Positions 14,231 to 37,480 of a stretch of DNA of 37,660 nt are shown one piece after another (position 1 is the stretch's first letter; every line of letters starts with the position of its first letter). The position numbers and the translations under genes were made by a program. Location of the stretch: NCBI GenBank assembly GCA_003599505.1, contig QZKO01000079.1:1-37660 (forward strand), written 5' to 3'. This stretch comes from Nitrospiraceae bacterium (GTDB taxonomy: Bacteria; Nitrospirota; Thermodesulfovibrionia; UBA6902). The notes beneath the pieces were generated by a model, which saw only the letters and a list, made by a program, of their open reading frames with translations, made no database searches and had not been told where the DNA came from.

Positions 14231-15091
14231 TTACCTCCTTATACGGGCAAACGGCCGTTCACCCCTACCAAAGCCTATTCTCACAAGTTTCCCTTTTGTG
14301 CCGCAGGCTTCGATGCATCTTCCGCAATAGATGCAGTTTGTATCCCGCAGTCCCGGTTGATCCAGATAATGGGTCATCTTAACATCCATGTAGCATACCT
14401 GCTCGCAGAGATTGCATTCACCGCAGTCTCCTTCGGAAAATTTGAGTTTGATAAGACTTATTTTATTAAACAGACCATAGGTCTTCCCTAACGGACATAA
14501 GACCTTGCACCATAGCCTCGGGAAGAAATATTCCAGAAACAACAGGGAAAAAATGACAAAGCCCGAAAACAATAACACACTTGAATCGGCCGGAAGATCG
14601 AGGGCAAAATATACACTTGAGTTGATCAGCGTGAAAAAGTTCGTAAGGTGTGAAAGATAGCGTGTGAAGGAGGGGACGCCGAGTAGCCCTGAGATTACGA
14701 GTAGTGCGGCAGCAGCGCCGTAACCGATATTGTGTGATATGTTTTGTAGGGGCGATTCATGAATCGCCCCTGCCGGTAACTGCCGGCTTTCTATCTTGCT
14801 GACCAATCCAAAAAGAAAATCCATCGGACAGACCCACCCGCAGAACGCCCTGCCGAATATGAGATATATTCCGATGACCGGAAGTACTGCAAGCAATGCC
14901 TGAAAAGTGAAAGTCTTTGATGCAGCAAGTGTTTCAAGATAAGCAAAAACATCCATCAGATTTAAAGACCATATTGCAAGAGACCCGGTAAGCCCGCCGA
15001 CGAGAACCTTCATCCTGAAAAATTGCAGAAGGAATAGAATTATTATTCCCAGCAGCACAAAACGCCGACCCCTACCTGTACTCACGCTCAA
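14231..15091 (-). CDS. napH: NapH-like membrane polyferredoxin, quinol dehydrogenase subunit
   Basis: Inner-membrane protein that oxidises menaquinol and passes electrons to NapG. Four or five hydrophobic segments; the twin motifs GRAFCGWVCP (C84, C88) and LWCKVLCPLG (C195, C199); two cytoplasmic [4Fe-4S] sites C223/226/229/233 and C253/256/259/263. The frame overlaps the napG stop by 20 bases. Start TTG 15091 has GGGGG eight bases upstream; GTG 15085 is an alternative. Residues about 106-116 (PAGAIHESPLQ) are encoded by a 24-bp palindromic repeat inserted after the first CxxxCP motif, apparently without breaking the frame. No napC or napB is seen, so NapGH is probably the sole quinol entry for NapA. 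Confidence 0.9.
   Translation of the reverse strand: MSVSTGRGRRFVLLGIIILFLLQFFRMKVLVGGLTGSLAIWSLNLMDVFAYLETLAASKTFTFQALLAVLPVIGIYLIFGRAFCGWVCPMDFLFGLVSKIESRQLPAGAIHESPLQNISHNIGYGAAAALLVISGLLGVPSFTRYLSHLTNFFTLINSSVYFALDLPADSSVLLFSGFVIFSLLFLEYFFPRLWCKVLCPLGKTYGLFNKISLIKLKFSEGDCGECNLCEQVCYMDVKMTHYLDQPGLRDTNCIYCGRCIEACGTKGKLVRIGFGRGERPFARIRR
14748..14771. repeat. 24-bp perfect palindrome inside napH
   Basis: Arm AGGGGCGATTCA is followed immediately by its exact complement. Palindromes of this GGGGCGATTCATGAATCGCCCC type are familiar as dispersed intergenic repeats in many bacterial genomes; that is from memory and not checked here. In this case it lies wholly within the reading frame. Confidence 0.9.
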
Positions 15092-15854
15092 TCAGCTTCC
15101 CCCTTTCCATGATTCCGGGCAGGTTTTGACCGTATACAATGTTGTACCTTTCTTCACTGGACATGGCCAGGAGTCTCCTGAAATCATTTATATAAGCCGT
15201 CCTGCTCAGTTCATATTGCCGTTTTGTGACAACTTTTATTGCCGAGCCTCCTAAGGGGCAGTATTTTACGCATAATCCGCATCCGACACAGTTGTCGTTA
15301 ATATACGGCTGATTGCCCCACTCGCCGTTGTAGAATTCAAATATCTTCCCGCCCATTGGGCAGGCCTTGCTGCATGAAAGGCAGACATCGCCATTCCAGC
15401 CGAAACACAGGCCGAAATCTATAAGCGCCATGCCCATCGCAACATCTTCTTTTTTTGTTTCTTGCAGGGCGCCTGTCGGACAATGTTCGGGGCACTCCAT
15501 GCACAGTCCGCATGGGAAGTCGCGCATGTCTTTTATGTAAGGGGCGCCGTATTCAAAAATCCCCCTTAATCCCCCTTTGCCAAAGGGGGAGGTTGCGACA
15601 GCATCATATTTCATCACATGACAGACGTTCACGCACACACCGCAGCTTATGCAGGTGGCAAGGAATGCTTTCTCCGGTAAAGCGCCGGGCGGTCTTATCA
15701 GCCCGCCGGCGGGTATATGAGGAAGGGGAACCATTGACTGCTCCGCCGCGTCAGGCTCGTCAGCGAAGATCTGACGCCTGCTGCAGATCGCGGTTGCTAT
15801 GCCCGCTACGGCTGCTGTCTTAATGAAGTGCCTACGTGAAAGTTCCAAAGCCAT
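15072..15854 (-). CDS. napG: NapG-like periplasmic ferredoxin
   Basis: Tat-exported iron-sulfur protein linking NapH to NapA. Tat motif SRRHFIK at residues 6-12. Sixteen cysteines make four [4Fe-4S] sites: C68/71/74/78, C115/118/121/125, C150/158/161/165 and C189/192/195/199. Length of 260 is close to the family norm. Residues 88-99 (TSPFGKGGLRGI) come from a palindromic repeat inserted between the first and second clusters. The first cluster ends CVNVCH rather than the usual CP. GGGAG abuts the ATG, an unusually short spacing. Lies 60 bases after napA and overlaps napH. Confidence 0.9.
   Translation of the reverse strand: MALELSRRHFIKTAAVAGIATAICSRRQIFADEPDAAEQSMVPLPHIPAGGLIRPPGALPEKAFLATCISCGVCVNVCHVMKYDAVATSPFGKGGLRGIFEYGAPYIKDMRDFPCGLCMECPEHCPTGALQETKKEDVAMGMALIDFGLCFGWNGDVCLSCSKACPMGGKIFEFYNGEWGNQPYINDNCVGCGLCVKYCPLGGSAIKVVTKRQYELSRTAYINDFRRLLAMSSEERYNIVYGQNLPGIMERGKLIEREYR
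15556..15590. repeat. Palindromic repeat element inside napG
   Basis: TCCCCCTTTG-C-CAAAGGGGGA (15570-15590, 10-bp perfect arms) preceded by a second TCCCCCTTAA copy. Elements of this sort are normally intergenic and widely dispersed, to my knowledge. On the minus strand it is read in frame as TSPFGKGGLRGI. Confidence 0.9.
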
Positions 15855-15914
15855 CTCCCGTTACCCCTCTGTCTAACTTTTCTTGCCTCTTGCCCTTTGC
15901 CTCTCGCCTTTCTT

Positions 15915-18900
15915 TTACGCCACTATCTTTCCAGGCTCTGCCTGTCTGCCTTTTGTCCTGCCCTTATATATCTTCACTGCGAACATCTTGTAGTCCGCCT
16001 GGAAACTGAAGGGGTCAAAGGCGTCGCGCATAATCATATTGATAAGCTTATATTCATCGAACCAGGGAATGAACACATAGTCGTGTCTCGGGCCGCCCGT
16101 CGCCTTTGCCGTATCGAGTAATTTTGCGGGGAGCTCTATTTTCCCCCTCGGCGATTCAACAATTACGGAATCGCCGTTTTTAATTCCGAGCTTCTTTGCA
16201 AGCTCTTCATTAAGCTCGACATACGCGCCGGGCACCGCCCTCGCAAGCTCCGGGACCCTCGTTGTCATGCTGCCCGAATGCCAGTGCTCAATAACTCTGC
16301 CGGTGCATGCGCCGTATTTGTAATCCGTTGTATCGATGATGAGGAGTTTGCTGCCGTCAGCTTTTACATACTCATGCCTCAGATCATGGAACTCCGCGGG
16401 GCTCAGCGCGATATTCTTGAGGGCGCGTATATCCTTTTCAGGATCGCCTATGACATCCGCTGTGTATTTTGCGGTCTCATCAAACGGGAGGGCGCTGTTT
16501 TCCGCCACCTTCGCGGGGTTGAACTTCCTCTCGATAACCACAACGTTTTTATACTTCGTAAACTGTTTGCCGTCGAATTTTGCCGCCCACCAGGGATTGG
16601 CCCATGCGATGGCCCTGCCGTCCCACCCGGGGATCTTTTTGGTCTTGCCGTCAGGCATGGTCAAATCTACCATCCCATTGATAAAGGCATTGGAATTATA
16701 GAAACTCGCGTACCATCCGTCGGGAATATTTTGCGCCTTCTGATAATCCCGGTCCGCCTTCATTGCGTTGACATTTTTTTCAAGCCATGCGCCGTAGACC
16801 GGATTGAAATCTTTCATGTTCTTCAGATAGAACCCTGTCTTCCCTTCTATGTGAGGGTCATAGGGCCAGGCATACTGAATCCTTGACTGGTATTTTTCAT
16901 ATCTCTGCTTAATTTCGGGATTAGTATGGACTTCCTCAGGGAATGGAATTCTGTATCCATAATTCTGCTCCAGAAGGAGTTCGCGTCTCATGCCGCTGAA
17001 ATCATATCCAGTCCCCTTTGACAGGGCCCTGAGCTCGTCCCAGATGTTCCATGAAAATTTCCTGTTCCATTCTTTTGTCTTTCCCGCCTCGATGGTCTTT
17101 TTCAGCCATTCGCTTCCATCATATTCAGAAGGCCAGAATTGGGATATATGCCCCTTCGGAACAAGCCCTTTTTCTTCAAGTCTTCTCATAACGCACGCGA
17201 ATATGGTGTGATCAGGCAGGGTGTTGCCGTACGGTTCAATTACCTGCTTGACGACCTGATACCTTCTCTCAAGATTTCCGAATATGAACTCCTTCTCATA
17301 CCAACTGGAGGCCCCGAGAACAATATCCGACACCTGAGTTGTAGCGTTGGGAAATGCTTCGAGTGTTATAACGAGAGGCCAGGCTTCGCCTTTATTGGCT
17401 CCGCCCATTGCCAGCCTGTAGGGCCATGAATAAGGAAGACTCTGCCCGGCGTTTACTGTTGAGATAAACATCGTCTTTATCTGCCCTGCGCCGAGTCTCC
17501 TGAACATCTCCATCGTGTGAGGCCCGGGTTTGTCGTGAATCTTTATCTTTGCTGTTTCTTCCGATATCACGGAATCAGGCAGACCCTGTTTTTTCAGATA
17601 TTCCGCAGACCTTTCCTTCCAGATTTTTTCAACGGCTTCTCTGTGGAGGGGATTTGCGACAAGCCTTCCATAAGGGAGCGCGTGACATAAGGCCCCCGGG
17701 GCCCGGATTCCACCGCAGGCGTTGGGCTGTCCGGTAAAGCTGAAGGAATGCCTTCCGGGTTTAACGGCCTTGCCTGTGATCAGATGCAGCATGTGGAGCG
17801 ACGCGTTCGTCCACGTGCCCTGAAGCTTCTGATTTACGCCCATACACCACGCGGACAAGGTGTAACCCTCCGCGAACCATTTCGCGGCGAGCCTTATGGC
17901 CTCAGGGCCGCTTATCTTTTTCCATGCTTTTGTCGTCTTGTCATAAAGCAGGGGCGCTTCGCCTTCAAAGATTATTTCTGAGACCTTTTCAGGCCTGTAA
18001 TCTTCGAGGAACTTAAGGAATACGGCAAAGCCTTTATACAGGTCTTTCATTATCTCTTCTTCGGAGGCGTATTTATTCTTAAGGTTCGGAAAAGTCTTTC
18101 TCGGTTCTGCGGTATAAGTGAGGTCCCACGCGGCATCTCTTGCTCCACCGTAAGCAGTTTTTACCCAGGTCTTCTTTACATCTTCGTGAATTCCGAAGCT
18201 CACATGCCTTTCAATAAATTTCTTGTCCAGATATTTCCACCCGGCCTCGACCGTGCCTTTTCCCACGTCAGCCTTCGCCCCGTCAAGTTCATGCGCAATG
18301 ACATATGCCATGGAATTGAGGAGCACAAGGTCTCTTCCACTCGCAAAGGGCAGCCATAAATCGGCGATAGTCCCGGAGCGCGTCTTTCTCGGGTCCGCGA
18401 GAATAACCTTTACGTTTGGGTTTTTTTGCTTCATGGCGGCCATCCTGTTGAAAATTATCGGGTGTCCTTCGGCTGTATTGCTGCCTATTAAAAATAGTGT
18501 ATCGGCATGTTTCCCGTAATCCGGGTCAGGGACGTCAATATCATCAAGACAGCCGTAAGGTTCATCTTTGCCGAATGTATAAAGATAGCCGACGACCGCG
18601 GAAGCCATGCACATCCTCGGCTGCCCTTCGATGGCATTATTTGCGAGCATCCCTCCGCCCTTGAATACTTTATTCATGATATGCGTCTCTTCAGTGCCGA
18701 GCTGCCCGCTGCCGTAGAATGCGACGCTGTGCTTTCCGGATTCCCTGACCGATTTTTCGACTGCGTCAGCCGTGAAATTTATCGCGTCTTCCCAGGGCAC
18801 GAGCACAAAGTTTTCTTTCAAATCGGTTTCAGAAGGCTTCAGTCCTTTCGGGTCTTTTGTCGTCTTTCCCGTAAGCACCCTCGGGGAGTTGACCATATCA

Positions 18901-19250
18901 GGCTTTCCTGTCTTAGGGTTGATCCATTCCTTCCTGATAAGAGCGCCTTTCGGTCTATCTTTATACGCAATGGCCTTGTGGAGATAAAAACCCTTTGTGC
19001 AGAGCACGCCCCTGTTTACAGGGCTTTTGAGGTCCCCTTTTATTGCCAGAATTTTCGTTACCTTTCCTGTCTCATCCACCTCGCCGTCAGCAATCATCGA
19101 ACATCCTACGGCGCAAAACCTGCACTGCCCTATAGGTATCGATTTAACAGGAAGGCCAGCGTAAAGCATCTCCGGCACGGATATGCCTGCTGCTGCGGCA
19201 GCTGACGTTATAGCGCTCATTCTCAGAAAATCTCTCCTGCTTATTTCCAT
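15915..19250 (-). CDS. napA: NapA-like periplasmic nitrate reductase catalytic subunit, enlarged
   Basis: Molybdenum bis-MGD enzyme reducing nitrate to nitrite in the periplasm. Tat motif SRRDFLR at 4-10. [4Fe-4S] ligands C43/C46/C50/C84 in CRFCAVGC and GVLCTKG. The Mo-ligand cysteine is C214 in [10 protein letters not shown], followed by the FGKDEPYGC stretch typical of NapA. The C-terminal NapA signature [20 protein letters not shown] is present near residue 1010. At 1,111 residues it is about 280 longer than common NapA (about 830); extra sequence is concentrated around residues 330-470 and 780-960. Preceded by a heme-containing gene and followed by napG. AAGGAG lies at a proper distance. 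Identity as NapA-family is firm; substrate nitrate is by family, and the insertions leave room for another oxyanion. Confidence 0.9.
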   Translation of the reverse strand: [1111 protein letters not shown]

Positions 19251-25257: not shown

Positions 25258-25277
25258 ACATCCCGCCGGCGGTGTTT

Positions 25278-25283
25278 TATCAT
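25278..25283 (+). promoter_or_regulatory. Predicted -10 element (TATCAT) of the respiratory operon
   Basis: TATCAT matches TATAAT at five of six positions and lies seven bases before A25290. With the dyad at -41.5 no -35 box is needed. Start of transcription would coincide with the ATG, implying a leaderless message; in agreement, no Shine-Dalgarno precedes this ATG. Confidence 0.55.
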
Positions 25284-25289
25284 TCCATC

Positions 25290-26369
25290 ATGAACGAGAA
25301 AATAAATAATATCATCCTCTGTTTTGACAACAGCGATTTGTCCCTTCAGGCGTCTGAAGCGGCCCTCGACATCGCCGTCGCCTTAGGCTCGGAGGTCGTA
25401 GGAGTCCACGCTTACAACGCCTTCATGCATGAAGGCGCGTTCAGGATAATGGAGCCTACTCTCCCGGAAGCCTACCAGAAGGAAGAAATATTGCAAAAAC
25501 AGAGAACCGTCCACAGTACGCTCATAAACGTAGGTATGGAGAAAATATCTCTCTCGTATCTCAAACCTGTTGAAGACTCTTTTCAAAGCGCCGGCGTCAG
25601 TTTCAGACCAAAGGTGGTGGAGGGGAAGAATTACAGCGTAATAAATGCGGTCCTGCGGGAAGAAGACGGTGATCTTGTCATGATCGGATCCTCGGGTTTT
25701 AACGGAAACGGCACGGGGTTTATAGGCAGCGTATGCTCAAGGGTTTTGAGAAATAATGATAAGAACTTCCTTATCGTCAGGAAGCATATCGATTTAAGAC
25801 AGCCGAAATTCGTGGTCTGCCTGGACGGCAGCTCTTCCTCAATCAACGCCCTGAAAATGGCCGATCTCTTTGCCGGTAAATTCGGGGCCGGGATACACCT
25901 TGTTTACGGCTTTGATTCTGAGCTGCATAAAAACCTGTTTATGAGACTTAAGGAATCTGTGATAAACAGGGAGGGGTTTTCGTTCAACTCAAAACAGCAG
26001 GAGAAGATACACGATGAGTTTATTGATAAAGGACTCGCGCGCGTGGGCAACATGATACTCGATAAGGCGGAGAAGGAAGTTATAGATGCAGAACACAGAG
26101 CACAGAGCACAGACATCGGCAAAGGATGGGGACTTGTAGGTGAGATTGACAGAGCGCCGTTTGTCAAGAAGGTCCTTGAAGGCCATATCTACAAAAGGAT
26201 ATGTGATTATGCCTCGGAGATAAACGCAGACATGATATTTATAGGCAGGAACGGCAGGCACTTTTCAGAAGGGATGGATATAGGGTCGGTTACGGAGAAC
26301 GTTGTGAGGTTCGCCCCGTGCAGTATATTTGTATCACAGTCGGAGAAGTATAAGGGATGGGAATTATGA
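25290..26369 (+). CDS. Tandem universal stress protein (UspA) domains
   Basis: 359 residues with two Usp domains. Domain 1 (about 1-165) starts NIILCFDNSDLS and ends with the ATP-binding signature GSSGFNGNGTGFIGSVCSRVL. Domain 2 (about 175-359) starts FVVCLDGSSSS and ends GRNGRHFSEGMDIGSVTENV, also with the G-2x-G-9x-G-S/T pattern. A helical insert in domain 2 contains AEHRAQSTDIGKG, partly encoded by a CACAGAG-type repeat. First gene of the long respiratory operon and overlaps the radical SAM gene by four bases. A GTG at 25272 is in frame but ATG 25290 fits the promoter geometry. Likely couples energy state to the operon, an inference. Confidence 0.88.
   Translation: MNEKINNIILCFDNSDLSLQASEAALDIAVALGSEVVGVHAYNAFMHEGAFRIMEPTLPEAYQKEEILQKQRTVHSTLINVGMEKISLSYLKPVEDSFQSAGVSFRPKVVEGKNYSVINAVLREEDGDLVMIGSSGFNGNGTGFIGSVCSRVLRNNDKNFLIVRKHIDLRQPKFVVCLDGSSSSINALKMADLFAGKFGAGIHLVYGFDSELHKNLFMRLKESVINREGFSFNSKQQEKIHDEFIDKGLARVGNMILDKAEKEVIDAEHRAQSTDIGKGWGLVGEIDRAPFVKKVLEGHIYKRICDYASEINADMIFIGRNGRHFSEGMDIGSVTENVVRFAPCSIFVSQSEKYKGWEL
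26089..26115 (+). repeat. CAGAGCACAGAGCACAGA tandem repeat in the UspA gene
   Basis: Two to three CACAGAG/AGCACAG units in frame, encoding EHRAQST within the insert of the second Usp domain. It is related in composition to the CTCTGTG repeats at 1976-2001 read on the other strand. Shorter and less certain than the repeats in napG, napH, nxrB and nxrC. Confidence 0.55.
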
Positions 26370-27595
26370 AAGACTACAAGCCATACCTGGTATCATGGAA
26401 CCTTACAAAGAGGTGTAATCTTGCGTGCCCGCACTGTTACATTGATTCAAACTCGAGACTCCGGAACCTCCGCTCCGAATTGTCCGGGGATGAGGCAAGA
26501 CTGGTCATCGATGAATTGTCTTATCTTAATTCCCCCCTCATGCTTATCCTGAGCGGCGGGGAGCCCATGCTGAGAGACGATATATTTGAAATAGTGGAAT
26601 ATGCCTCCGAGGCCCGGTTTATCACTGTCATGGGCTCAAACGGGATACTCCTTACAAAAGAAAATCTGAAACTCCTGAAAAAGGCCGGACTGAAAGGAGT
26701 GGGAGTCAGCATAGATTCGGTTGACAGCCGGTGTCACGATTCATTTCGCGGCCTTTCAGGGGCATGGGAAATGTCTGTCGATTCCATCAGGTCCGCAAAG
26801 GAAGCAGGGATTGAGGCGCAGATGGACGTATCTCTTACTGATAAAAATGTGGACCACATAGCCGGTTTTATAGAGCTCGGCGCTTCCCTGTCCGTAAAAG
26901 CAGTAAATTTCTTCTTTCTTGTCTGTACCGGCAGGGCCATGAAGACGGACATCGCGTCATACCATTACGAAACCGCATTGAAAAAGATTACGGAGATCTC
27001 AAAGACAGAGAAGAGACTCATGATCAGGGCCAGATGCGCCCCGCACATATACAGGCTTCTTCACGAAAGCGGGACCGACATTCCCGAAGGCACAAGAGGG
27101 TGTCTTGCAGGAAGGCATTACATGAGGATAGACCCCGAAGGGAACATAACGCCGTGTCCGTATATGCCTCTTGCAATCGGCAATATTAAGAAAAAATCGC
27201 TGACAGAGATATGGGAGGAGTCGCCGGATTTAAAGAAGATGCGCGAAGGCGCATACAAACACAAATGCGGCATATGCAAGTACGCGGTAATATGCGGAGG
27301 TTGCAGAGCCAGGGCCCTGGCTGAAAGCGGTGATTTTATGGAGGAGGACTCTTTATGCACATACACGCCTTCGGGAGACGAAGAGATCAGACTTGATGCA
27401 GGATGCGTGACTGAACTTTCATGGGATGACGCGGCAAAAGACAGGATAAGAAAAGTCCCTGTGTTCATGCAGGGGATGATTATAAAAATGATCGAAACAA
27501 AGGCAAAGGAAAGAGGGATCGAGGTAATAACCGGAGAACTGATAGGTGAGTTGAAGGAGTCTTTGGGAGTACACGCTAATAAAAGGAGGTCTTGA
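26366..27595 (+). CDS. Radical SAM/SPASM protein with C-terminal PCP_red domain (AhbC/AhbD/NirJ-like)
   Basis: 409 residues. Radical SAM [4Fe-4S] motif CNLACPHC (C17, C21, C24), GGEP motif in LILSGGEPMLRDD, a SPASM region with Cys in GCLAGRHYMRIDPEGN, TPCPYMP, CGICKYAVICGGC and a final SLCTY. The tail, from LSWDDAAKDRIRKVP to the end, matches the PCP_red domain also found in light-independent protochlorophyllide reductase. This group includes AhbC/AhbD (siroheme-derived heme synthesis) and NirJ (heme d1). A role in making or altering a tetrapyrrole for the operon's cytochromes is likely, though not proved. ATG 26366 (overlap ATGA) has GGGATGGGA upstream; ATG 26357 is too close to any Shine-Dalgarno. 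Confidence 0.85.
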   Translation: MKDYKPYLVSWNLTKRCNLACPHCYIDSNSRLRNLRSELSGDEARLVIDELSYLNSPLMLILSGGEPMLRDDIFEIVEYASEARFITVMGSNGILLTKENLKLLKKAGLKGVGVSIDSVDSRCHDSFRGLSGAWEMSVDSIRSAKEAGIEAQMDVSLTDKNVDHIAGFIELGASLSVKAVNFFFLVCTGRAMKTDIASYHYETALKKITEISKTEKRLMIRARCAPHIYRLLHESGTDIPEGTRGCLAGRHYMRIDPEGNITPCPYMPLAIGNIKKKSLTEIWEESPDLKKMREGAYKHKCGICKYAVICGGCRARALAESGDFMEEDSLCTYTPSGDEEIRLDAGCVTELSWDDAAKDRIRKVPVFMQGMIIKMIETKAKERGIEVITGELIGELKESLGVHANKRRS

Positions 27596-29283
27596 TGGGT
27601 GGCTGGATTAAAAAGCAGTTTATTCTTTTGATTGGCCTGGCGATTGCCGCTGCGGGGATTTATATTGGAGCGCAGGCGGGTGTCGACTACAAAGATTTTC
27701 CTGTAATCGGCGCCAGAAACGCGGTATGGGTCCTGGCCCAGACCATGCTTCTTTTTGCGGCCTTTATTTTAGCTGTGCCTGTGTTTGTAATGATAATTGA
27801 AATAACAGGCTATGTTAAAAAGGACCGGAGGCTCGATGCCCTTGCAAAGGATTTCGCAAGGCTGCTTCCCATTTCATATTCGATAACCGCGATTTTGGGC
27901 GGGCTATTCACCCTTGTCAGTTATTCCCTGTTCCCGAAGTTTATGAACTATATGACGGCAGGGTTTAAACCTACTTATGTTGTATTCGCGGTCCTTGTAT
28001 TCCTTGAGTCAACAGCGGTATATATTTACTGGACCACATGGGACCGACTCCAGGGGGATAGAAAGAAACAGCATATCTTCCTCGGCGTACTGCTGAATGT
28101 CCTCGGCACCCTTGTCATGATGGTCGGAAACGTATGGGGCTCTTTCCACTTAAGCCCCGCCGGCGTTGACGCGGCAGGAAAGATCGTGGACCTCAGAGAG
28201 GCTGTTTTCAACCTCACATTCTGGCCCATCAACATCCACAGGTTTCTTGCCAATGTTTCTTTCGGAGGGTTCATATGCGCGGCCTATGCCGCATATAAAT
28301 ATCTTTCCTCTGAAACCGACGAAGAAAGATCGCATTATGACTGGATGGGCTACACAGGGACTTTTGTCGGAGTAGCCACGATGATACTGCTTCCCTTCGC
28401 GGGCTATTATTTCGGCATGGAGATATACAGGTTCAACGCGCAGATGGGGATTACGTTCATGGGAGGCGCGCTTTCAAAAATATGGCTGCTGCAGGCGATA
28501 GTAATAGCAGTGATATGGCTCGGGGTCTGCTACTATCTCTGGATAGGGCTGAACAGGATACCCGGCTCTGAGAAATACAAAAAAATAATCCCCTGGATAA
28601 GCTGGGGACTGATCATCGCCTTTGCGATATGGGCCACGCCGAGGGCCTGGGTCGCCTCACTGGAAGATATGGCGGGAGGGGCCCATCCGATCTTCGGCAC
28701 TGTGGGGATAATGGCCCCCAAGATAGCGGCTGTCAATTTCGCTATCGCAGGCGTGATACTGACCTTTTTGTTTAACAAACACGCCGGCAGGATAATCCCC
28801 GAGGGCAGGAAAGGGTATATTTATCTTGAGTGGCTGGTCTTCCTGCTCATAATCGCTGTAAACCTTGTGGTGCTCTACTACAGTTACAAGGTGCCGTCCG
28901 CTCAAAGGATAAAACTTTCCATCTATACATTTATTTTCATGGTCCCCGCCATCGGGCTTATATATCTTCTTGACGGGCTGCTGCTCAAGGGTTCTCAACG
29001 GGTAGGCGAGATAAGATGGGGCAATATGCCTCCGAGATCGCAATATGCGTTAATCGCGGTTGCTGTTTCAAACGTGTGGGCCATGGCGCTTCTTGGTTAC
29101 GGGAGGGCCGCCGCGAGGCTCAACTGGCATGTCTACGGAGCGCTGGAAGACACATCAAAATACGCGGGACTGCCTTCAATGGGAAACGCGACCATGGTCA
29201 TATCCGGCATCACAATATTATTTCTTGTCCTTATAGGCGTTGTTTTCAGATTCACCGGCGCTGAAAAAGGAGGTGTAAGATGA
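27595..29283 (+). CDS. Cytochrome bd oxidase subunit I-like (CydA-like) membrane protein
   Basis: 562 residues with about 14 hydrophobic segments. The N-terminal half aligns with CydA: ARNAVWVLAQTMLLF with the first helix, VVFAVLVFLESTAVY with the active-site helix, GDRKKQHIFLG, NVWGSFHLSPAG (like NGWMQNPIG) and PINIHRFLANVSFGG with the heme b558 His at 215. By eye, the b595 ligand His19 of E. coli is replaced (Met51), Glu99 is not matched, Glu107 is kept as E138, and no GRQPW quinol loop is found. It therefore resembles the bd-like proteins of Nitrospira more than true oxidases. AAAGGAGG lies five bases before ATG 27595, which overlaps the preceding stop (TGATG). Likely the membrane heme b/quinone port of the Nxr system; no cydB is present. 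Confidence 0.85.
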   Translation: MGGWIKKQFILLIGLAIAAAGIYIGAQAGVDYKDFPVIGARNAVWVLAQTMLLFAAFILAVPVFVMIIEITGYVKKDRRLDALAKDFARLLPISYSITAILGGLFTLVSYSLFPKFMNYMTAGFKPTYVVFAVLVFLESTAVYIYWTTWDRLQGDRKKQHIFLGVLLNVLGTLVMMVGNVWGSFHLSPAGVDAAGKIVDLREAVFNLTFWPINIHRFLANVSFGGFICAAYAAYKYLSSETDEERSHYDWMGYTGTFVGVATMILLPFAGYYFGMEIYRFNAQMGITFMGGALSKIWLLQAIVIAVIWLGVCYYLWIGLNRIPGSEKYKKIIPWISWGLIIAFAIWATPRAWVASLEDMAGGAHPIFGTVGIMAPKIAAVNFAIAGVILTFLFNKHAGRIIPEGRKGYIYLEWLVFLLIIAVNLVVLYYSYKVPSAQRIKLSIYTFIFMVPAIGLIYLLDGLLLKGSQRVGEIRWGNMPPRSQYALIAVAVSNVWAMALLGYGRAAARLNWHVYGALEDTSKYAGLPSMGNATMVISGITILFLVLIGVVFRFTGAEKGGVR

Positions 29284-29711
29284 AAGGCGGATTGAGACTT
29301 ATAATCGTTGCCCTGATTGTCACAGGCTTTTACGCGTGGTTTGGAAATTCAATACCCCAATCAGCATGGGAAGCCCCGAAAAAAAAGCTGCTTACAGCGG
29401 ATATGACCCCAAGACAACTGTCGACAGAAGGGAAAGAGATTTTCAGGAAGGCAGGCTGCGGGGTCTGCCACAGTGTGACAGGCGGGCAATTAAGGGGGCC
29501 TGATTTATCGAGGATCGGCTCTGAGAGGGACGCGGAGATAATGGCCGCGATACTTTACAGCGGGACCGACGTAATGCCTGCCGCAAATAAACCGCCCGCT
29601 AACCTTAATGACGCGGAGATAACCGCTGTGGTCGCGTATATGCAGAGCCTCGGAGGGAGACCGAAGGTGAAGATAGGGGATATAAAAGTGGAGGATTATG
29701 ATGGACGATAA
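29280..29711 (+). CDS. Membrane-anchored monoheme cytochrome c
   Basis: 143 residues: N-terminal anchor helix (LRLIIVALIVTGFYAWFG), then a class I cytochrome c domain with CGVCH at 60-64, GPDL after it, and the likely axial Met at 99 (TDVMPAA). The C-terminal helix DAEITAVVAYMQSLGG is typical. The start codon overlaps the CydA-like stop (ATGA) and has GGAGGT upstream; the 3' end overlaps the next cytochrome gene. Expected to carry electrons in the periplasm between the bd-like subunit and the Nxr complex. Confidence 0.92.
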   Translation: MKGGLRLIIVALIVTGFYAWFGNSIPQSAWEAPKKKLLTADMTPRQLSTEGKEIFRKAGCGVCHSVTGGQLRGPDLSRIGSERDAEIMAAILYSGTDVMPAANKPPANLNDAEITAVVAYMQSLGGRPKVKIGDIKVEDYDGR

Positions 29712-30429
29712 CAACAAGGGCATACCATCCGGGATTATCGCATTGGTTACTATTATCGGTTCGTATGTGCTTATGAGGTTTGTGGCGCAGCCGCCGCTGC
29801 CGTCAACCCTCACCAACTTTTTTATGATGTTTATTCTTGCTGGGGTGGTAATCTACATTACACTTGAAGACAGCAGGATAGAGGAATTTCTTGATTTCAT
29901 ATCTTTCAGGTCAAAACTGCCCCTTGTCTGGGACATATTCAGAAAGGCCATCTTCGCGGCTATCCCATTCTTTGTCGCGTACAATGTTTATTCCACTGAG
30001 AAGATAACTTATTCTCCTCCCGGCGAGCTTTTCCAGCCCCACGTTACGCCCCCGCAGTGGGTTGTCGACTACAAGGTCCCTGAATGGGCGGCAAATCCTG
30101 AAAAGTGGGAACAGCGGTTTATTGATCAGGGCAAAAAAATATATGAAGATAATTGCCTTCCATGCCATGGAAAAGACGCCGATGGAAAAGGTCCGGCGGC
30201 CTCATCCATCAGATATCCTGCAGCGCCTACCAATTTTAAAGAGCCGGGAACTATCGCGCAATTGCCTGTTTCATATGTTTACTGGCGCGTGAGGGATGGG
30301 GGGATATTTGACAAGCAATTCAACAGCGCCATGCCGGGCTGGGGAGAGGAATTAGAGGAAGAGGAAATATGGAAAGTGATTATGTACACCTATCACAAGG
30401 CTGGTGTGAAACCGAGGACGTGGGAGTAA
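29701..30429 (+). CDS. Membrane-bound monoheme cytochrome c with three transmembrane helices
   Basis: 242 residues: hydrophobic segments at about 11-30, 39-55 and 80-95, followed by a periplasmic class I cytochrome c domain. The heme motif is CLPCHGKDADGKGPAA (152-156) and the likely sixth ligand is Met 211 in NSAMPGWGEEL. ATG 29698 is also available, but GGAGG sits three bases from it and six from ATG 29701. Overlaps the previous cytochrome gene by 11 bases. The multi-helix anchor suggests it belongs to the membrane complex with the CydA-like protein. Confidence 0.9.
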   Translation: MDDNNKGIPSGIIALVTIIGSYVLMRFVAQPPLPSTLTNFFMMFILAGVVIYITLEDSRIEEFLDFISFRSKLPLVWDIFRKAIFAAIPFFVAYNVYSTEKITYSPPGELFQPHVTPPQWVVDYKVPEWAANPEKWEQRFIDQGKKIYEDNCLPCHGKDADGKGPAASSIRYPAAPTNFKEPGTIAQLPVSYVYWRVRDGGIFDKQFNSAMPGWGEELEEEEIWKVIMYTYHKAGVKPRTWE

Positions 30430-30464: not shown

Positions 30465-31163
30465 ATGATAGATAACGCAGAAAAGGCTTTTCAGAGAAGC
30501 AAGGTTTATGAATTGACGGCTTACGCATTCGGGGAGCCGTCTGAGGAGTTTCTAAGTTTTGCAAGAAGCGGCGAGCTCCTGAAGCATATGAAAGAATCTT
30601 TAAGAACGCATCCTTATGCCGTTGAGATGGATATCCGGCCGCTGGAATTAATCATTGAAGAATTGAAGGATATTGATATTCATGAGCTGCGCCTGGAATA
30701 CGGGAAGATGATCTCCCCTGAGATGAATTTCCTTTACGAATGTAATTACCACCCTCCTCTTAATGCCTCTGAAGAAATGTCTGATGTTGCTGGATTTTAC
30801 AGGGCGTTCAGCATGGGGTTTACAGGCGACAGGCCCGACCACATATCCATGCAGCTTGAATTCATGAGGCTGCTGACCCTGAAAGAGGCAAAGGCGCTCC
30901 TTGACAGAGACACGGAAAATGAGGGAGTTTGTGTTTCCGCTCAAAAGAAATTCCTCCACTCTCATCTCGGCAGATGGACCTCGACCCTCTCACGTATGGC
31001 TGGAGGGATAAGGTTCTATGGACCATTCAGCGCTTTGATAAAGAACTGGCTGACCGTTGAATGCACTTATCTGTCCGCAGGGACTGATGAAATATTTTAT
31101 AACTGCCGGAGCAGTTCCGGAGAAGAAAATTCTGATTGTTTTTCCAAAGGAGGCTGCGCATGA
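30465..31163 (+). CDS. TorD/NarJ-family molybdoenzyme chaperone
   Basis: Cytoplasmic all-helical chaperone of 232 residues with the family features RSKVYELTAYAFGEPSEEFL at the start, LRLEYGKMISPEMNFLYECNY in the centre and DHISMQLEFMRLLTLKEA. It should bind the Tat signal of NxrA and assist cofactor insertion. An unusual Cys-containing tail (residues about 213-232, with C213, C224 and C231) has no counterpart I recall. AAGGAG upstream; overlaps nxrA by four bases, as expected for a dedicated chaperone. Named nxrD in some nitrifier annotations. Confidence 0.88.
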   Translation: MIDNAEKAFQRSKVYELTAYAFGEPSEEFLSFARSGELLKHMKESLRTHPYAVEMDIRPLELIIEELKDIDIHELRLEYGKMISPEMNFLYECNYHPPLNASEEMSDVAGFYRAFSMGFTGDRPDHISMQLEFMRLLTLKEAKALLDRDTENEGVCVSAQKKFLHSHLGRWTSTLSRMAGGIRFYGPFSALIKNWLTVECTYLSAGTDEIFYNCRSSSGEENSDCFSKGGCA

Positions 31164-34100
31164 AGGGATTTAGCAGAAGGGATTTTCTGAAATGGTCTTT
31201 GGCCGGCGCCGCCGGCATTGCCGTGAGCTCGCCCAAATTCGCATTCCTGCAGCCCGTGAGCGTTGATAACCCTCTCGAATCGTATCCCGACAGGGAATGG
31301 GAAAAACTCTACAGGGACAAGTTCAGGTATGACGAAACGTTCACTTTCACCTGTGCGCCTAACGACACCCACAACTGCCTGCTCAGGGCTTATGTAAGAA
31401 ACGGCGTTGTGGTAAGGACAGGGCCTACATATGCGTTCGGTGATGCTACTGATGCGTACGGCAATCAGGCTTCTCACAGATGGGAGCCGAGGTGCTGCCA
31501 GAAGGCGCTGGTCCTGCCGAGAAGATTTTACGGCGACAGGAGACTGAGGGGCACTATGGTCAGAAAGGGTTTCCGGGACTGGATAAAGGCAGGGTTTCCG
31601 AGAGATACTGAGACAGGAAAACCCCCGGCAAAATATTTTGACAGGGGAAAAGATAAATGGCTTAAAGTTCCCCACGACGAGGCCTTTGAGCTTACAGCAA
31701 TGGCAGTAATGAATATAGCTGAGACTTACACTGGAGAAAAAGGCACCGGGCTGCTCAGAAAGCAGGGATATGATCCTGCATCAATTGAAACCATGCAGGG
31801 CGCAGGGACACAGGTCTTAAAACTGAGGGGCGGGATGCCGCTCCTTGGGGCCACGAGGCTGATGGGGCTTGTCAGGGTCGCCAATATGATGGCGCTCCTT
31901 GATGACCATATCAGGCATACGGGGGCTGAAAAGTCTGTCGGCGGAAGGCACTTTGACAATTACTCCTGGCATACGGACCTGCCGCCCGGACATCCCATGG
32001 TTACAGGGCAGCAGACCGTGGACTGCGACCTGTCAATGGCCGAGCAATCAAAGCTCATCACGCTCTGGGGTTTAAACTGGATTTCCACAAAGATGCCCGA
32101 CTCCCACTGGCTCACGGAAGCAAGGCAGAGAGGCACCAAAGTCATAAACATAACCATAGAGTATCAGTCCACCGCCAATAAATGTGACGAAGTGATTGTG
32201 ATAAGACCGGGCACAGACCACGCCCTCATGCTCGGTGTTGCAAGCATAATCATGAAAGGCAAACTCTATGACGAAAAATATGTGAGATCGTTTACAGACC
32301 TGCCGGTCCTTGTAAGAACAGATACCCTGCAGTACCTTCGGGCCTCCGATATTGTTGAGGATTACAAAAACTCTGAATTAAAAAATTATATGACGGTCCT
32401 GAAGACGGATGAGAAACCCCCTGCTCCATCAAAACAGTCCGGACAATATCTCCCTGAAAAGATGAGGGCCGAGTGGGGAGATTTTATCGTATGGGACAGC
32501 AAAAAAAACGAGCCCCGTATTATCAGCCGCGACATTGTAGGGGAAAGATTCGAGGAATTGGATGTCGTCCCTGCCCTTGATGGCGTCTATAAAGTCAAAA
32601 CAGTTGACGGCACAGAGATTGAAGTCCGGCCTGTCTTTGATATCCTGAGCGAGTATCTCACGGAGTTTACACCTAAAACCGTTTCAGAGATTACATGGGC
32701 TCCTGAAGCGGCAATACAAAACCTTGCGAAGGAAATCGCCAAATACAAGGCGTCTACATTCTTCGGGGTAGGCATGGGCCCGAACCAGTTTTTTAACGCG
32801 AGCCTTAAAGACAGGGGAATATTCCTTATCGCGGCCCTCACAAATAATATCGGGCGCATTGGAGGTTCTCCGGGAAGTTATGCCGGCAATTACCGTGTGG
32901 CTTTGTATAACGGGCTCCCCCAGTACATAATCGAAAATCCATTTGATATCGAGCCGGACCCTGAGAAACCCGTGAGATTGAAACCATACCTGAAATTTGA
33001 GTCCGCGCACTACTTCAGCCACGGCGATAAACCGTTGAGGCTCGGCAATAAACTTTTCACAGGGAAGACGCACATCCCGACGCCGACAAAGTTCCTCTGG
33101 TTTTCAAACAGCAACTCTATTATCGGTAACGCGAAATGGAGCTATGAAATCATTGTGAATACCCTGCCGAAGCTTGAGGCGGTTGTAATGAACGAATGGT
33201 GGTGGACGATGTCCTGCGAATATTCCGATGTCGTCTTCGGCGTTGACTCATGGGCGGAGTTCAAACACCCGGACCTGTGCGGCTCCGTGACCAATCCGTT
33301 TAACCAGGTTTATCCAACGACGCCTCTGAAAAGGATATTCGACACGGTCGGCGACATTGATACGTACGCCGGGGTCGCAAAAAAACTCGCGAAACTGACA
33401 GGAGACAGACGCTTTGAAGACTACTGGAAATTCGTATATGAAGGCAGGGTCGATGTATATCTCGACAGGATAGTAAAGGGAAGCAGCACGCTCAAAGGAT
33501 ATTCCTTCAGGCAGCTTCACGACCTGGCATTGAAGGGGATACCGTCGCTGAAGAATCTCAGGACGTATCCAAAGGTCGCGGGCTGGGAACAGACCAATGA
33601 AAGCAAACCGTGGTATACAAAAACGGGAAGACTGGAATTTTACAGGGAGGAACCGGAATTTATTGAGCACGGCGAGAACCTGCCGGTATACCGCGAACCT
33701 ATTGACGCGACCTTCTATGAGCCCAATGTGATCATTTCAAAAAAGATGAGCGTTCTCAAACCATCACAGCCTGAAGATTACGGGTTAAGGAGAGATGATC
33801 TCCATACCGAGACTAGGCAGGTAAGGAATGTGGTCAAGCAGTGGTCGGAGTTAAAGAATACCAGCCATCCCCTTGCGCATAAAGGGTACGGATTTTTGTT
33901 CATAACGCCAAAATACAGGCACGGGGCGCACTCTACCCCTATCGACATCGATATGATGACTGTATGGTACGGCCCGTTCGGCGACCTCTACAGGCGTGAC
34001 AAAAGGATGCCCTGGGTCGGAGAGGGATACCTCAATATGAACCCTGAAGACGCAAGGGCGCTGAAAATTAACGACGGAGATTATGTATGGGTTGACGCCG

Positions 34101-34603
34101 ACCCTGAGGACCGGCCGTATCATGGATGGAAGAAGGGAGATGAAGATTACAAAGTGGCGCGCATGATGTGCAGGGTGAGATATTACAGCGCCATTCCACG
34201 TGGCGTGCTCCAGATGTGGCACAACATGTATCAGGCCACGCACGGCTCGGTGAAAGGTCATGAGACAAACCCGGACGGTCTTGCTAAGAACCCTGAAACG
34301 AATTATCAGGCGATCTTCAGGTACGGAGGACACCAGAGCTGCACGAGGGCCTGGCTCGGACCAACATTAATGACGGATTCCCTTGTCAGAAAAGACGTCT
34401 TCGGACAGTTGATCGGTAAAGGGTTTCTTGCCGATATACACTGTCCCGTCGGCGCCCCGAGAGAATCGTTTGTAAAAGTGACAAAGGCTGAAGACGGCGC
34501 TGTCGGAGGCAAAGGACTCTGGAGGCCCGCTGCGCTCGGGTTCAGGGCAGGATATGAAAATGAGTCAATGAAGAAGTATTTGAAGGGGGAATATATTATC
34601 TAA
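31160..34603 (+). CDS. nxrA: NxrA-type nitrite oxidoreductase / nitrate reductase alpha subunit, periplasmic
   Basis: Type II DMSO-reductase-family Mo enzyme, 1,147 residues. Tat motif SRRDFLK at 5-11 puts it in the periplasm. Candidate [4Fe-4S] ligands: C65, H71, C73 and C112/C113 (TFTCAPNDTHNC, PRCCQKAL), the spacing of the Nitrospira/anammox branch rather than the NarG HxxxCxxxC. The Mo-ligand Asp is D273 in SWHTDLPPGHP, equivalent to the NarG aspartate. Length agrees with Nitrospira-type NxrA. AAAGGAGG precedes the ATG, which overlaps the chaperone stop. It could oxidise nitrite or reduce nitrate; chlorate and selenate enzymes are relatives. With a nap/ONR locus nearby, nitrate reduction is at least as likely as nitrification. 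Confidence 0.92.
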   Translation: MKGFSRRDFLKWSLAGAAGIAVSSPKFAFLQPVSVDNPLESYPDREWEKLYRDKFRYDETFTFTCAPNDTHNCLLRAYVRNGVVVRTGPTYAFGDATDAYGNQASHRWEPRCCQKALVLPRRFYGDRRLRGTMVRKGFRDWIKAGFPRDTETGKPPAKYFDRGKDKWLKVPHDEAFELTAMAVMNIAETYTGEKGTGLLRKQGYDPASIETMQGAGTQVLKLRGGMPLLGATRLMGLVRVANMMALLDDHIRHTGAEKSVGGRHFDNYSWHTDLPPGHPMVTGQQTVDCDLSMAEQSKLITLWGLNWISTKMPDSHWLTEARQRGTKVINITIEYQSTANKCDEVIVIRPGTDHALMLGVASIIMKGKLYDEKYVRSFTDLPVLVRTDTLQYLRASDIVEDYKNSELKNYMTVLKTDEKPPAPSKQSGQYLPEKMRAEWGDFIVWDSKKNEPRIISRDIVGERFEELDVVPALDGVYKVKTVDGTEIEVRPVFDILSEYLTEFTPKTVSEITWAPEAAIQNLAKEIAKYKASTFFGVGMGPNQFFNASLKDRGIFLIAALTNNIGRIGGSPGSYAGNYRVALYNGLPQYIIENPFDIEPDPEKPVRLKPYLKFESAHYFSHGDKPLRLGNKLFTGKTHIPTPTKFLWFSNSNSIIGNAKWSYEIIVNTLPKLEAVVMNEWWWTMSCEYSDVVFGVDSWAEFKHPDLCGSVTNPFNQVYPTTPLKRIFDTVGDIDTYAGVAKKLAKLTGDRRFEDYWKFVYEGRVDVYLDRIVKGSSTLKGYSFRQLHDLALKGIPSLKNLRTYPKVAGWEQTNESKPWYTKTGRLEFYREEPEFIEHGENLPVYREPIDATFYEPNVIISKKMSVLKPSQPEDYGLRRDDLHTETRQVRNVVKQWSELKNTSHPLAHKGYGFLFITPKYRHGAHSTPIDIDMMTVWYGPFGDLYRRDKRMPWVGEGYLNMNPEDARALKINDGDYVWVDADPEDRPYHGWKKGDEDYKVARMMCRVRYYSAIPRGVLQMWHNMYQATHGSVKGHETNPDGLAKNPETNYQAIFRYGGHQSCTRAWLGPTLMTDSLVRKDVFGQLIGKGFLADIHCPVGAPRESFVKVTKAEDGAVGGKGLWRPAALGFRAGYENESMKKYLKGEYII

Positions 34604-34696: not shown

Positions 34697-35830
34697 ATGG
34701 CAAAGAATAAAGTAAACAACTGGCAGATCCGGCGTGAGATGTTTTATCCGTATGAAGAAGTAAGGCCGCAGAAACAGTTTGCCGCGGTCTTTGACATCAA
34801 CAAATGCATAGCCTGCCAGACCTGCACTATGGCGTGCAAGCAGACGTGGACCACCGGCAGAGGGCAGGAATACATGTTCTGGAACAACGTGGAATCGAAG
34901 CCGTACGGGTTCTATCCTCTTGCATGGGATGTGAAGATCCTTGAGGCGCTCGGCGCGCAGAATTGGGACGGGGACAGATATTCAGGGAAAACAATTTTTG
35001 AGGCCGCGCCAAAGGGACAGGCCGTGGAAGGCTATCTGCCCGAGGACGCTGATTACGCATATCCTAACGTCGGTGAAGACGAACCGTTCGGAGAAGTTAA
35101 AAAAGGGGACTACATCACGATCCCTCACAGGGTGTGGCATTTCTATCTGCCGCGTATCTGCAATCACTGCACCTATCCGGCCTGCGTGGGGGCATGCCCG
35201 AGAAAGGCGATATACAAAAGAGAAGAAGACGGGATAGTGCTTGTGGACCAGAAACGGTGCAGGGGATACAGGGAATGCGTAAGGGCCTGCCCTTACAAGA
35301 AGGTATTTTTTAACAAGACGACGAAGATAGCGGAGAAATGCATCGCCTGTTATCCGTTGATTGAAAAAGGCGAGCAGACCCAGTGCATCAGGACCTGCAT
35401 CGGCAGGATCAGACTCAACGGGTGGCTTCATCTGCCTGAAAAGGCGGACCCTTCAAACCCCATGGATTATCTGGTCCATATCAAAAAGGTCGCCTTGCCG
35501 CTTTTTCCGCAATTCGGCCTGGAGCCGAATGTTTATTATATACCTCCCATTCATGTGCCGGCGCCTTATCTCAGGCAGATGTTCGGACCGGGCGTTGAAC
35601 AGGCAATAAAGACGTACAAGACCGCGCAGAACGATGAGACCCTGCTCGGGGCCCTGACGGTCTTCGGTTCTTCCGAGTTCCGGGTTTCAAAGTTCCGGGT
35701 CTCAAAAGGGGTCGTGACGGGTTATGACGACAAAGGAGATGAGCTCGTAAAGGTCCCGTTAAAAGAGCCTGTCTTTATCAGGCCGTTTCATGATGAAAAA
35801 CTCCAGGTATATCGCCATAACATAACATAG
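34697..35830 (+). CDS. nxrB: NxrB-type iron-sulfur subunit
   Basis: Electron-transfer subunit of 377 residues with sixteen-position cluster pattern: C37/40/43/47, C155/158/163/167, C188/194/198 with Tyr 191 where the fourth Cys would be, and C215/218/230/234. As in NarH, where Trp takes that place, this predicts three [4Fe-4S] and one [3Fe-4S]. No Tat signal, as it should be carried out with Nxr[21 protein letters not shown] and the long insert with [14 protein letters not shown] are typical of the NxrB/NarH branch. Residues 326-336 ([11 protein letters not shown]) are encoded by a 15-bp tandem repeat near the C-terminus. GGGAGG lies upstream of the ATG. Confidence 0.93.
35676..35705 (+). repeat. 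15-bp tandem duplication inside nxrB
   Basis: AGTTCCGGGTTTCAA is followed at once by AGTTCCGGGTCTCAA (one mismatch). The unit is a multiple of three and adds EFRVSK-type residues. GTTCCGGGTTC repeats are, to my knowledge, common between genes in related genomes. Confidence 0.9.
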
Positions 35831-35839
35831 GAGGCGGGA

Positions 35840-36778
35840 ATGAGAAATAAAAGTCAGAAGTCAGAAGTCAGAAGTCAGAAGTCGAAGGAACTCGTTACTT
35901 TCTTTCTCTTACTGCTCACTGTTCACTGTTCACTGTTCACTGATTACGCTTACTCCCAGGGTCTTATCGTTATGGCAAATAAAATTTCCGGTGAGCTGCC
36001 GCTTGACCCTGATAACAGCGCCTGGAATAGGGCCTCAGGTATTGAGATCCCTCTCGCACCCCAGGTTATGGCGAAGCCGAGGGTATATGAATCGGGCATA
36101 AAGAAATTGAACGTCAGGGCCTTGCATAACACAAAAGAGGCGGCCTTCCTGCTTACATGGGAGGACAACACTGAGGACGCGGCAGTGGACGTCGACAGAT
36201 TTTCCGATGCTGTCGCGCTGGAGTTCCCGTCATCCTCTTCTGAGGGTAAACCCCATTTCGCGATGGGCGACACGGAGAAAACAGTAAACATCTGGTTCTG
36301 GAAGGCTGCGTGGCAGAGCCGATCCGACGGCGATAAAGTTTACGCGACTTCAGATGACTTTCTTGGCGGAGTTCTGGCAGGAAATCCCGTATCGGAAGAG
36401 CGGACCTTGCCGGTAGAAAATCTTGTTGCCCAGGGGTTCGGGAGCGCTACGGACATGGAAAAGGCGGACATTCAGAATATCACAGGCAGCGGTAAATGGA
36501 AGTCCGGCAAATGGGCCGTTGTATTTAAGAGACCGCTGACATCGGACGGCAGGTTTAACGTTAAATTTAAAGAAGGCTCTGTCACGCCTCTTGCATTTGC
36601 TGTCTGGAATGGTTCAGAAGGCGACAGGGGCGGAAGGAAGGTTGTATCCACCTGGTATTATGTCGGGTTTGAGACAGAGGAGAAAAAGACAATATATTTT
36701 TACCCTGTGCTCGCGTTTATAGGCGCGCTTGGAATAGAAGCTGGAATAATTATGGGAATAAGAAGAAAAAGGGTGTAG
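35840..36778 (+). CDS. nxrC: NxrC-like heme b subunit (ethylbenzene dehydrogenase gamma-like)
   Basis: 312 residues. Signal region 1-40 (TFFLLLLTVHCSLFT, cleaved near AYSQG), then a beta-sandwich of the type II DMSO-reductase gamma family (EbdC/ClrC/NxrC), which holds one heme b with Met and Lys ligands. Candidate ligands: Met in HFAMGDTEKTVNIWFWK (about residue 142) and Lys in WAVVFKRPL (about residue 237). A C-terminal helix (YFYPVLAFIGALGIEAGIIMG) ends in RRKRV and would anchor it in the inner membrane facing the periplasm. GGAGG precedes the ATG. The first 40 codons contain two arrays of 7-bp repeats. Electron exit or entry point between NxrB and the cytochromes. Confidence 0.87.
   Translation: MRNKSQKSEVRSQKSKELVTFFLLLLTVHCSLFTDYAYSQGLIVMANKISGELPLDPDNSAWNRASGIEIPLAPQVMAKPRVYESGIKKLNVRALHNTKEAAFLLTWEDNTEDAAVDVDRFSDAVALEFPSSSSEGKPHFAMGDTEKTVNIWFWKAAWQSRSDGDKVYATSDDFLGGVLAGNPVSEERTLPVENLVAQGFGSATDMEKADIQNITGSGKWKSGKWAVVFKRPLTSDGRFNVKFKEGSVTPLAFAVWNGSEGDRGGRKVVSTWYYVGFETEEKKTIYFYPVLAFIGALGIEAGIIMGIRRKRV
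35853..35887 (+). repeat. 7-bp tandem array (GTCAGAA) at the start of nxrC
   Basis: Four exact GTCAGAA units (35853-35880) and a fifth variant (GTCGAAG), beginning five codons after the ATG. Encodes the polar, Lys/Ser-rich n-region of the signal peptide. The unit length is not a multiple of three. Confidence 0.92.
35916..35943 (+). repeat. 7-bp tandem array (TCACTGT) in the nxrC signal-peptide region
   Basis: Three exact TCACTGT units and a fourth variant (TCACTGA), encoding the TVHCSLFTDY part just before the predicted signal cleavage site. As with the first array, loss or gain of a unit shifts the frame. Confidence 0.92.
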
Positions 36779-36805
36779 GGAGTAGATGGGGAAAAGGAGG
36801 TTATG

Positions 36806-37480
36806 ATGAATCTTAAAGAAGAAGGGCAAGAAGTCCGTTCACGTGTAACATTAAATGAAATTCCGGGGCGGTTCCTCGAATGGCTTGTTTCATCAAGGAC
36901 CAAATTTCTCAACGACATGCTGGAGGGCAAACCGATGCGATATTTTTCCGCGCATCTTCCGGTCATGGCTACGTGGAGGGAAGGGGACCCTTTCCCTGTA
37001 AATATGACGGTCAAGGGTATCGGGTTAATTCCGAAGGATGAGTGTATTCAGGACTACACTGATATGTTTGAAGCAGTGATTGCAGAATCCAGGACAAAAT
37101 CATGGGAGGAAAGCCTTCATAAAAGGATCGGGGTCATGAATAAACTGTACAATGACGCCGGCTGCTTTAATCCGGCCCTCCTTGGAGGCCTGGAGATATT
37201 TGAAGGAAAGGCTTACGAGAATCTAAGGGAGAACCCCCATACGAGCCTGCTTTATGTCGGCATGGCCCATTCTCCCCACGGCATGCAGTATACAAGTTTT
37301 CAGGTAAACGGTGAAGTTGAACTTCTTGATAAAAACAACCCTTATTACAGGTTCCTGCTTGCTTCGAGAAAGCTGTTTGAATTTGAGAAATTCCACCTCT
37401 ACCAGCCTGATTATCCTTTCGGCTATCTTATCAATGTTATTGAAGTGAGGGACAAATCACCGTGGTCCAGGAATAAATGA
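36806..37480 (+). CDS. Conserved-looking protein of unknown function, possible flavin split-barrel
   Basis: About 224 residues, no signal peptide and no membrane helix, so cytoplasmic. I do not recognise the N-terminal half. The C-terminal half (GKAYENLRENPHTSLLYVGMA, then FQVNGEVELLDKNNPYYRFLLASRKL and GYLINVIEVRDKSPW) is reminiscent of pyridoxamine-phosphate-oxidase-like FMN-binding split barrels, where a strand NLxxNPxxSLxxV precedes a G-x-a-x-l strand; this is a weak match by eye. AAAGGAGG precedes ATG 36803 and ATG 36806; the latter has better spacing. It is 27 bases downstream of nxrC and probably the last gene of the operon, so a role with the Nxr complex or its cofactors is possible. 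Confidence 0.7.
   Translation: MNLKEEGQEVRSRVTLNEIPGRFLEWLVSSRTKFLNDMLEGKPMRYFSAHLPVMATWREGDPFPVNMTVKGIGLIPKDECIQDYTDMFEAVIAESRTKSWEESLHKRIGVMNKLYNDAGCFNPALLGGLEIFEGKAYENLRENPHTSLLYVGMAHSPHGMQYTSFQVNGEVELLDKNNPYYRFLLASRKLFEFEKFHLYQPDYPFGYLINVIEVRDKSPWSRNK

Follow-up and report, generated by a model that had tools for sequence, protein, structure and literature searches.

The window analysed here, a 37,660-nucleotide stretch from a Nitrospiraceae bacterium, carries on its forward strand a gene (27595..29283) for a bd-like, CydA-related membrane protein that has Met at the position of the heme d ligand and stands in one operon with genes assigned to nitrite oxidoreductase (NXR). The protein is a membrane descendant of an oxygen-consuming respiratory enzyme, and probably it now passes electrons between NXR and the membrane and does not use oxygen. 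Stated in full, the best reading is that its oxygen-reducing heme site is dismantled, that a b558-type heme is kept and that it serves as the membrane electron-transfer arm of the periplasmic NXR; we consider the chances of this reading to be about even. The role of bd-like proteins in nitrite oxidisers and anammox bacteria has been debated since 2010–2013, with oxidase, anchor and reverse electron transport as candidates. A conserved variant that lacks the ligand of the O2 site and is joined to an NXR operon separates those roles, and it uncouples the bd-like module from the O2 site. Since the variant is conserved without the ligand, its function cannot depend on the His-ligated heme of that site, and an electron-transfer role becomes directly testable. 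The active-site loss and the fusion into the operon appear to be unreported in the open-licence papers covered; the module itself is known from nitrifiers.

Heme-ligand positions of the bd-like protein

The open reading frame starts at 27592/27595 and ends at 29283 on the plus strand, has a Shine-Dalgarno sequence and encodes 562 residues counted from the ATG. Its Pfam match to PF01654 (E 1e-15) is confined to residues 48–278, and the CydA-like match spans TM1–5. Solved CydA chains match with E-values down to 1e-8 as single sequences and 6e-16 as a profile, and profile–profile alignment with canonical CydA (hhalign) gives 97% probability over residues 41–243. The AF2 model (pLDDT 86, pTM 0.88) superposes along its entire length on solved CydA structures (VIA Z 30–34). 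It has about 13 membrane helices; the CydA-like N-terminal core is present, and the Q-loop is replaced by membrane helices. The best fold match outside CydA is ActF (Z 21.7, 319 residues, rmsd 3.5). This ActF/NrfD likeness may be general to every CydA, and it is kept out of the proof.

In E. coli CydA, His19 ligates heme d, Glu445 ligates heme b595, and His186 and Met393 ligate heme b558 (PMC8585947); Glu99 faces heme d (PMC8585947, PMC8324918, PMC6853902). MAFFT alignment with E. coli CydA and profile–profile alignment agree in pairing Met51 (plus-strand codon 27745..27747) with His19, Phe131 (27985..27987) with Glu99, Glu138 (28006..28008) with Glu107 and His215 (28237..28239) with His186. 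The pairing of Phe131 with Glu99 carries a gap at E. coli Leu101. By these alignments the heme d ligand is gone, while Glu138 and the b558 ligand His215 are retained, the latter in all 130 family members. This bears out what the initial annotation had read by eye, including Met for His19, which is the same in all alignments. A sequencing error behind Met51 is ruled out, because a change from His to Met alters all three codon bases and recurs in five assemblies. Met51 could itself ligate heme, and O2 or NO chemistry is thus conceivable.

The same annotation had taken a missing GRQPW motif for a missing quinol loop. The motif is not the Q-loop; it belongs to the Glu445/heme b595 site and is half kept, as R508-LNW-H512 (29116..29130). 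R508 and W511 correspond to E. coli R448 and W451, and Ala occupies the position of Glu445. The family motif is RQHW where the window protein has RLNW, and R508, W511 and H512 are near-invariant in the family. The Q-loop is absent all the same, as alignment with E. coli CydA finds no equivalent of its residues Lys252 and Glu257, and the second b558 ligand, the Met393 equivalent, is not conserved across the aligned bd-like family. The alignments, of the kind that had been proposed as a check, restore neither the heme d and b595 ligands nor a Q-loop. With canonical CydA (E. coli, Geobacillus, Mycobacterium) the protein shares the fold and the His186 and Glu107 equivalents; unlike canonical CydA, it is without equivalents of His19, Glu99, Glu445 and Met393, without the Q-loop and without CydB.

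The bd-like family and the Met-type clade

There are 274 candidate relatives in bacterial genomes, from Nitrospirota, Nitrospinota, anammox Planctomycetota, Gemmatimonadota, Poribacteria, Myxococcota, Pseudomonadota and other phyla. They match over the full length (E to 1e-146, 37–85% identity), and the tree places the window protein among them. Judged by this homology, it is a member of a widespread bd-like family and not an aberrant CydA. None of the aligned family members has the Q-loop residues, Glu99 or Glu445; the family has Tyr at the Glu99 position and retains His19. In the alignments, the losses of Glu99, Glu445, the Q-loop and CydB are family-wide traits, and only the replacements of His51 by Met and Tyr131 by Phe are specific to the clade of the window protein. 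The initial annotation misread family-wide traits as losses of this protein because its comparison was made with E. coli CydA only. Glu99 is indeed unmatched, with Phe131 in its place, but this does not count as a loss of its own, since the family already has Tyr.

The family is the one whose nitrifier members have been described as a "bd-like oxidase" with 14 helices and no quinol residues (PMC3578206, PMC6606698). In Nitrospira, Nitrospina and Kuenenia, bd-like_3 forms a module with two cytochromes c and alt_NxrC_2, and a role near NXR was already suspected (PMC3578206, PMC6606698); the nitrifier module has been published as an NXR anchor with quinone access (PMC6606698; PMC3578206). The window protein resembles bd-like_3 in whole-chain homology (about 37–44% identity to most relatives compared), and the two modules share the absence of a Q-loop, extra helices, two cytochrome c neighbours and an EB_dh protein. 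In the nitrifier and anammox module His19 is kept, the EB_dh protein is mostly a diheme form of 470–580 aa and nxrAB lies elsewhere, whereas the window has Met at His19 and its module in one operon with torD-nxrABC. The window protein also belongs with the OR-N proteins of Murali et al. (2021), as far as these are portrayed in citing papers (PMC10839748, PMC12342949), sharing with them cytochrome c neighbours, a CydA core that has no quinol site and the absence of CydB. Unlike the OR-N family as portrayed there, it is without the His19 ligand and without the second CydA-like partner of CydAA'.

Among 130 non-redundant members, position 51 is His in all 123 assessable other homologues and Met in exactly five; position 131 is Tyr in 125 members and Phe in the five Met51 proteins. 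These Met-type proteins, from the window genome (G000) and genomes G004, G163, G222 and G353, group in a single clade (support 100) within the class Thermodesulfovibrionia. Their hosts are subsurface bacteria among anaerobic nitrogen and sulfur cyclers, and the genomes compared are mostly metagenome bins. Met at position 51 is the derived state, because His is found in canonical CydA and in every other relative. Histidines 160, 215, 364 and 512 are kept in all five proteins, and the conserved His and Met residues are likewise kept except those replaced at 51 and at position 500. Of the 69 positions with at least 97% conservation among the other family members, the clade keeps 56. Changes in the clade include Y113F, Y131F, W209F, W295K and Q445T. 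With a long stem branch (1.2 changes per site) and 13 of 69 positions changed, the two changes beside heme d give no statistically sharp signal of targeted loss. Between the Met-type genes dN is 0.09–0.25 and dS is near or beyond saturation; dN so far below dS indicates purifying selection without decay and rules out a pseudogene.

PF02322 (CydB) has no match in the whole window genome, as had been claimed for cydB, nor in the four other Met-type genomes; an orphan CydB elsewhere in the genome is thereby ruled out. There is no second PF01654 protein in the window genome. The Met-type gene is the only CydA-like copy in G000, G004, G163 and G222, and G353 has a second, His-type copy. A CydAA' heterodimer is ruled out for four of the five genomes, which hold no second CydA-like gene.

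The nitrite oxidoreductase operon

The operon runs on the plus strand. It begins with a double universal-stress protein (Usp; 25272..26369, PF00582), a conserved neighbour found at 18 of 57 other loci, and a radical SAM/SPASM protein of heme-synthesis type (AhbD/NirJ2-like with PCP_red domain; 26357..27595), found at 17 of 57 other bd-like loci. The bd-like gene is followed by two monoheme cytochromes c, one membrane-anchored and of 143 aa (29280..29711; PF00034 and fusion matches), the other of 243 aa with N-terminal hydrophobic helices (29698..30429; PF13442). Then come a TorD-like chaperone of type II DMSO reductases (30465..31163; PF02613, TIGR03482), the Tat-exported molybdenum subunit NxrA (31160..34603; 983 bits over the full length to Kuenenia NxrA 7b04), the iron-sulfur subunit NxrB (34697..35830; 401 bits to 7b04_A) and the heme-b subunit NxrC (35840..36778; EB_dh, PF09459, TIGR03477, matching 7b04_C), which has a C-terminal hydrophobic helix and no CxxCH. 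The last gene, orf225 (36803..37480), encodes a 225-aa protein without a match in the Pfam search that is conserved at the operon end in the locus comparison; it also occurs near His-type modules (L184, L187, L188, L190, L191). The genes mostly overlap or stand at most 35 bases apart, with the largest gap, 93 bases, between nxrA and nxrB, and overlapping or abutting genes have their own ribosome sites. By homology to solved NXR subunits, nxrABC is assigned as nitrite oxidoreductase.

This order is repeated in G004, G163 and G222, with Usp and radical SAM swapped in G163, and in four of the five genomes the two cytochromes c, TorD and nxrABC are encoded in one operon with the Met-type gene. In G353 the Met-type gene is accompanied by both cytochromes, NxrC and orf225, but the type II molybdenum enzyme there is only distantly related and is split. 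Its molybdenum gene, downstream of the Met-type gene (L177:15157-17923), consists of two overlapping open reading frames, from either a frameshift or an assembly error.

The His-type module consists of the bd-like protein, two cytochromes c and an EB_dh protein that in most loci read is of greater length and carries two CxxCH motifs. Among 57 well-flanked His-type loci, the 243-aa-type cytochrome is present in 55 and the EB_dh gene in 54; NxrA or NxrB above 400 bits is found in none. The 143-aa-type cytochrome c is fused to the bd-like C-terminus in Scalindua and several Nitrospirota (E down to 6e-19), so that physical partnership with a cytochrome c is well supported. The radical SAM protein (AhbD/NirJ2-like, PCP_red) and double Usp accompany bd-like genes across phyla (L013, L015-L025, L044, L051, L058), a pattern suggestive of a dedicated step in heme maturation.

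NxrA at 70–100% identity to that of the window occurs in 4 of 230 Thermodesulfovibrionia genomes, each of which carries the Met-type gene. In the remaining fourteen NXR genomes of the class NxrA is 55–58% identical to it and the Met-type gene is absent; the hypergeometric probability of this co-occurrence is 4e-8, a value that ignores kinship and linkage. NxrA in this class has also been reported by others (PMC11033732). The two NxrA lineages are patchy over several families of the class, which suggests horizontal spread of the NXR operon. Six clusters of the 55–58% type were read, three with Rieske protein, cytochrome b and hexaheme cytochrome c and three with diheme cytochrome c. In the first three (L237:11013-14884, L238:4577-8427, L240:10552-14411), the Rieske protein, cytochrome b and a flavin/Fe-S pyridine-nucleotide oxidoreductase lie directly upstream of nxrA and the hexaheme cytochrome c downstream, with families checked in L238 and genes of L237 and L240 assigned by size and order; this is apparently an NXR-dedicated bc-type complex. 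In the window, the bd-like protein and its two cytochromes c occupy the slot that such a complex holds in these sister clusters.

Possible function in electron transfer

As an arm of NXR, the protein would lie on a path leading from NxrA (Mo) through NxrB (Fe-S) and NxrC (heme b) to the membrane cytochromes c (29280, 29698), and from these through its own heme b at His215 to the quinone pool. NXR-type enzymes can run in either direction (as cited in PMC11033732), and the path could carry electrons from quinol to nitrate reduction or from nitrite into reverse electron flow. Heme content, quinone contact and direction are inferred. On this reading the protein would stand in functionally for a bc-type complex III and carry out no O2 chemistry. 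Its slot and the lack of bc/b6f cytochrome b (PF00033/PF13631) in the window genome and its nearest relative G004 point to a quinone:cytochrome c role, and in the best reading it probably has such a role and is not an O2 reductase. The non-oxidase reading of the initial annotation, a quinol dehydrogenase or heme relay, fits the NXR operon, the fusions and the Rieske/cytochrome b slot, even though part of its premise was misread. We propose tentatively, and at somewhat less than even chances, that this bd-oxidase descendant is a dedicated quinone:cytochrome c oxidoreductase hard-wired in an NXR operon, which would add a third type of complex III to bc/b6f and alternative complex III. The likeness to alternative complex III and bc complexes lies in the proposed quinone:cytochrome c link and is a functional analogy, with the ActF fold match and without demonstrated sequence homology.

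Besides possible heme binding by Met51 and the long stem branch, three observations speak against the NXR-arm reading: the protein has no recognisable quinone site, the CydA Q-loop residues being absent family-wide; the type II molybdenum enzyme near the Met-type gene of G353 is of another kind and disrupted; and some sister NXR clusters manage with diheme cytochrome c alone. Another quinol route may run through NapC-type quinol dehydrogenases, with matches above the family cut-off in G004 and G163 and two sub-cut-off matches, both in one 1083-aa frame, in G000.

The missing quinone site also suits a protein that only docks NXR and relays electrons by heme b from NxrC to the cytochromes c, without quinone chemistry. 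The cytochrome c fusion and an operon holding two monoheme cytochromes c and a heme-b NxrC agree with this, yet an anchor needs less than a heme protein of 13 helices kept under strong purifying selection, a quinol-oxidising type of complex holds the slot in three sister clusters, and the window genome is without bc/b6f; we consider such a limited role unlikely, at perhaps one chance in four. An O2 or NO reductase fed by cytochrome c, with Met51 or another heme ligand, is less probable still. In its favour, a citing paper (PMC10839748) presents OR-N proteins as presumed O2 reductases linked to cytochrome c, E138, R508, W511 and H512 are retained, and Met is able to ligate heme. However, the His ligand of the O2-binding heme is invariant elsewhere, this clade alone has lost it along with the Tyr opposite, and the CydA' partner is missing in four of the five genomes. 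The window genome also encodes a member of the heme-copper oxidase superfamily (PF00115, E 3e-65, without an NCBIfam match), so the organism may respire O2 or NO independently of the bd-like protein. A degenerate remnant without function, which the lost ligand and long stem might suggest, is highly improbable given dN far below dS, a gene intact in five species, the retention of the remaining conserved His and Met residues apart from position 500, and a conserved operon order.

Further redox genes lie in the same window. A seven-CxxCH cytochrome c of NrfA type (PF02335; 20094-21818) adjoins the NXR region, and the minus strand at 14231-19250 encodes a second Tat-exported molybdenum oxidoreductase of 1111 aa with an Fe-S subunit and a further Fe-S protein.
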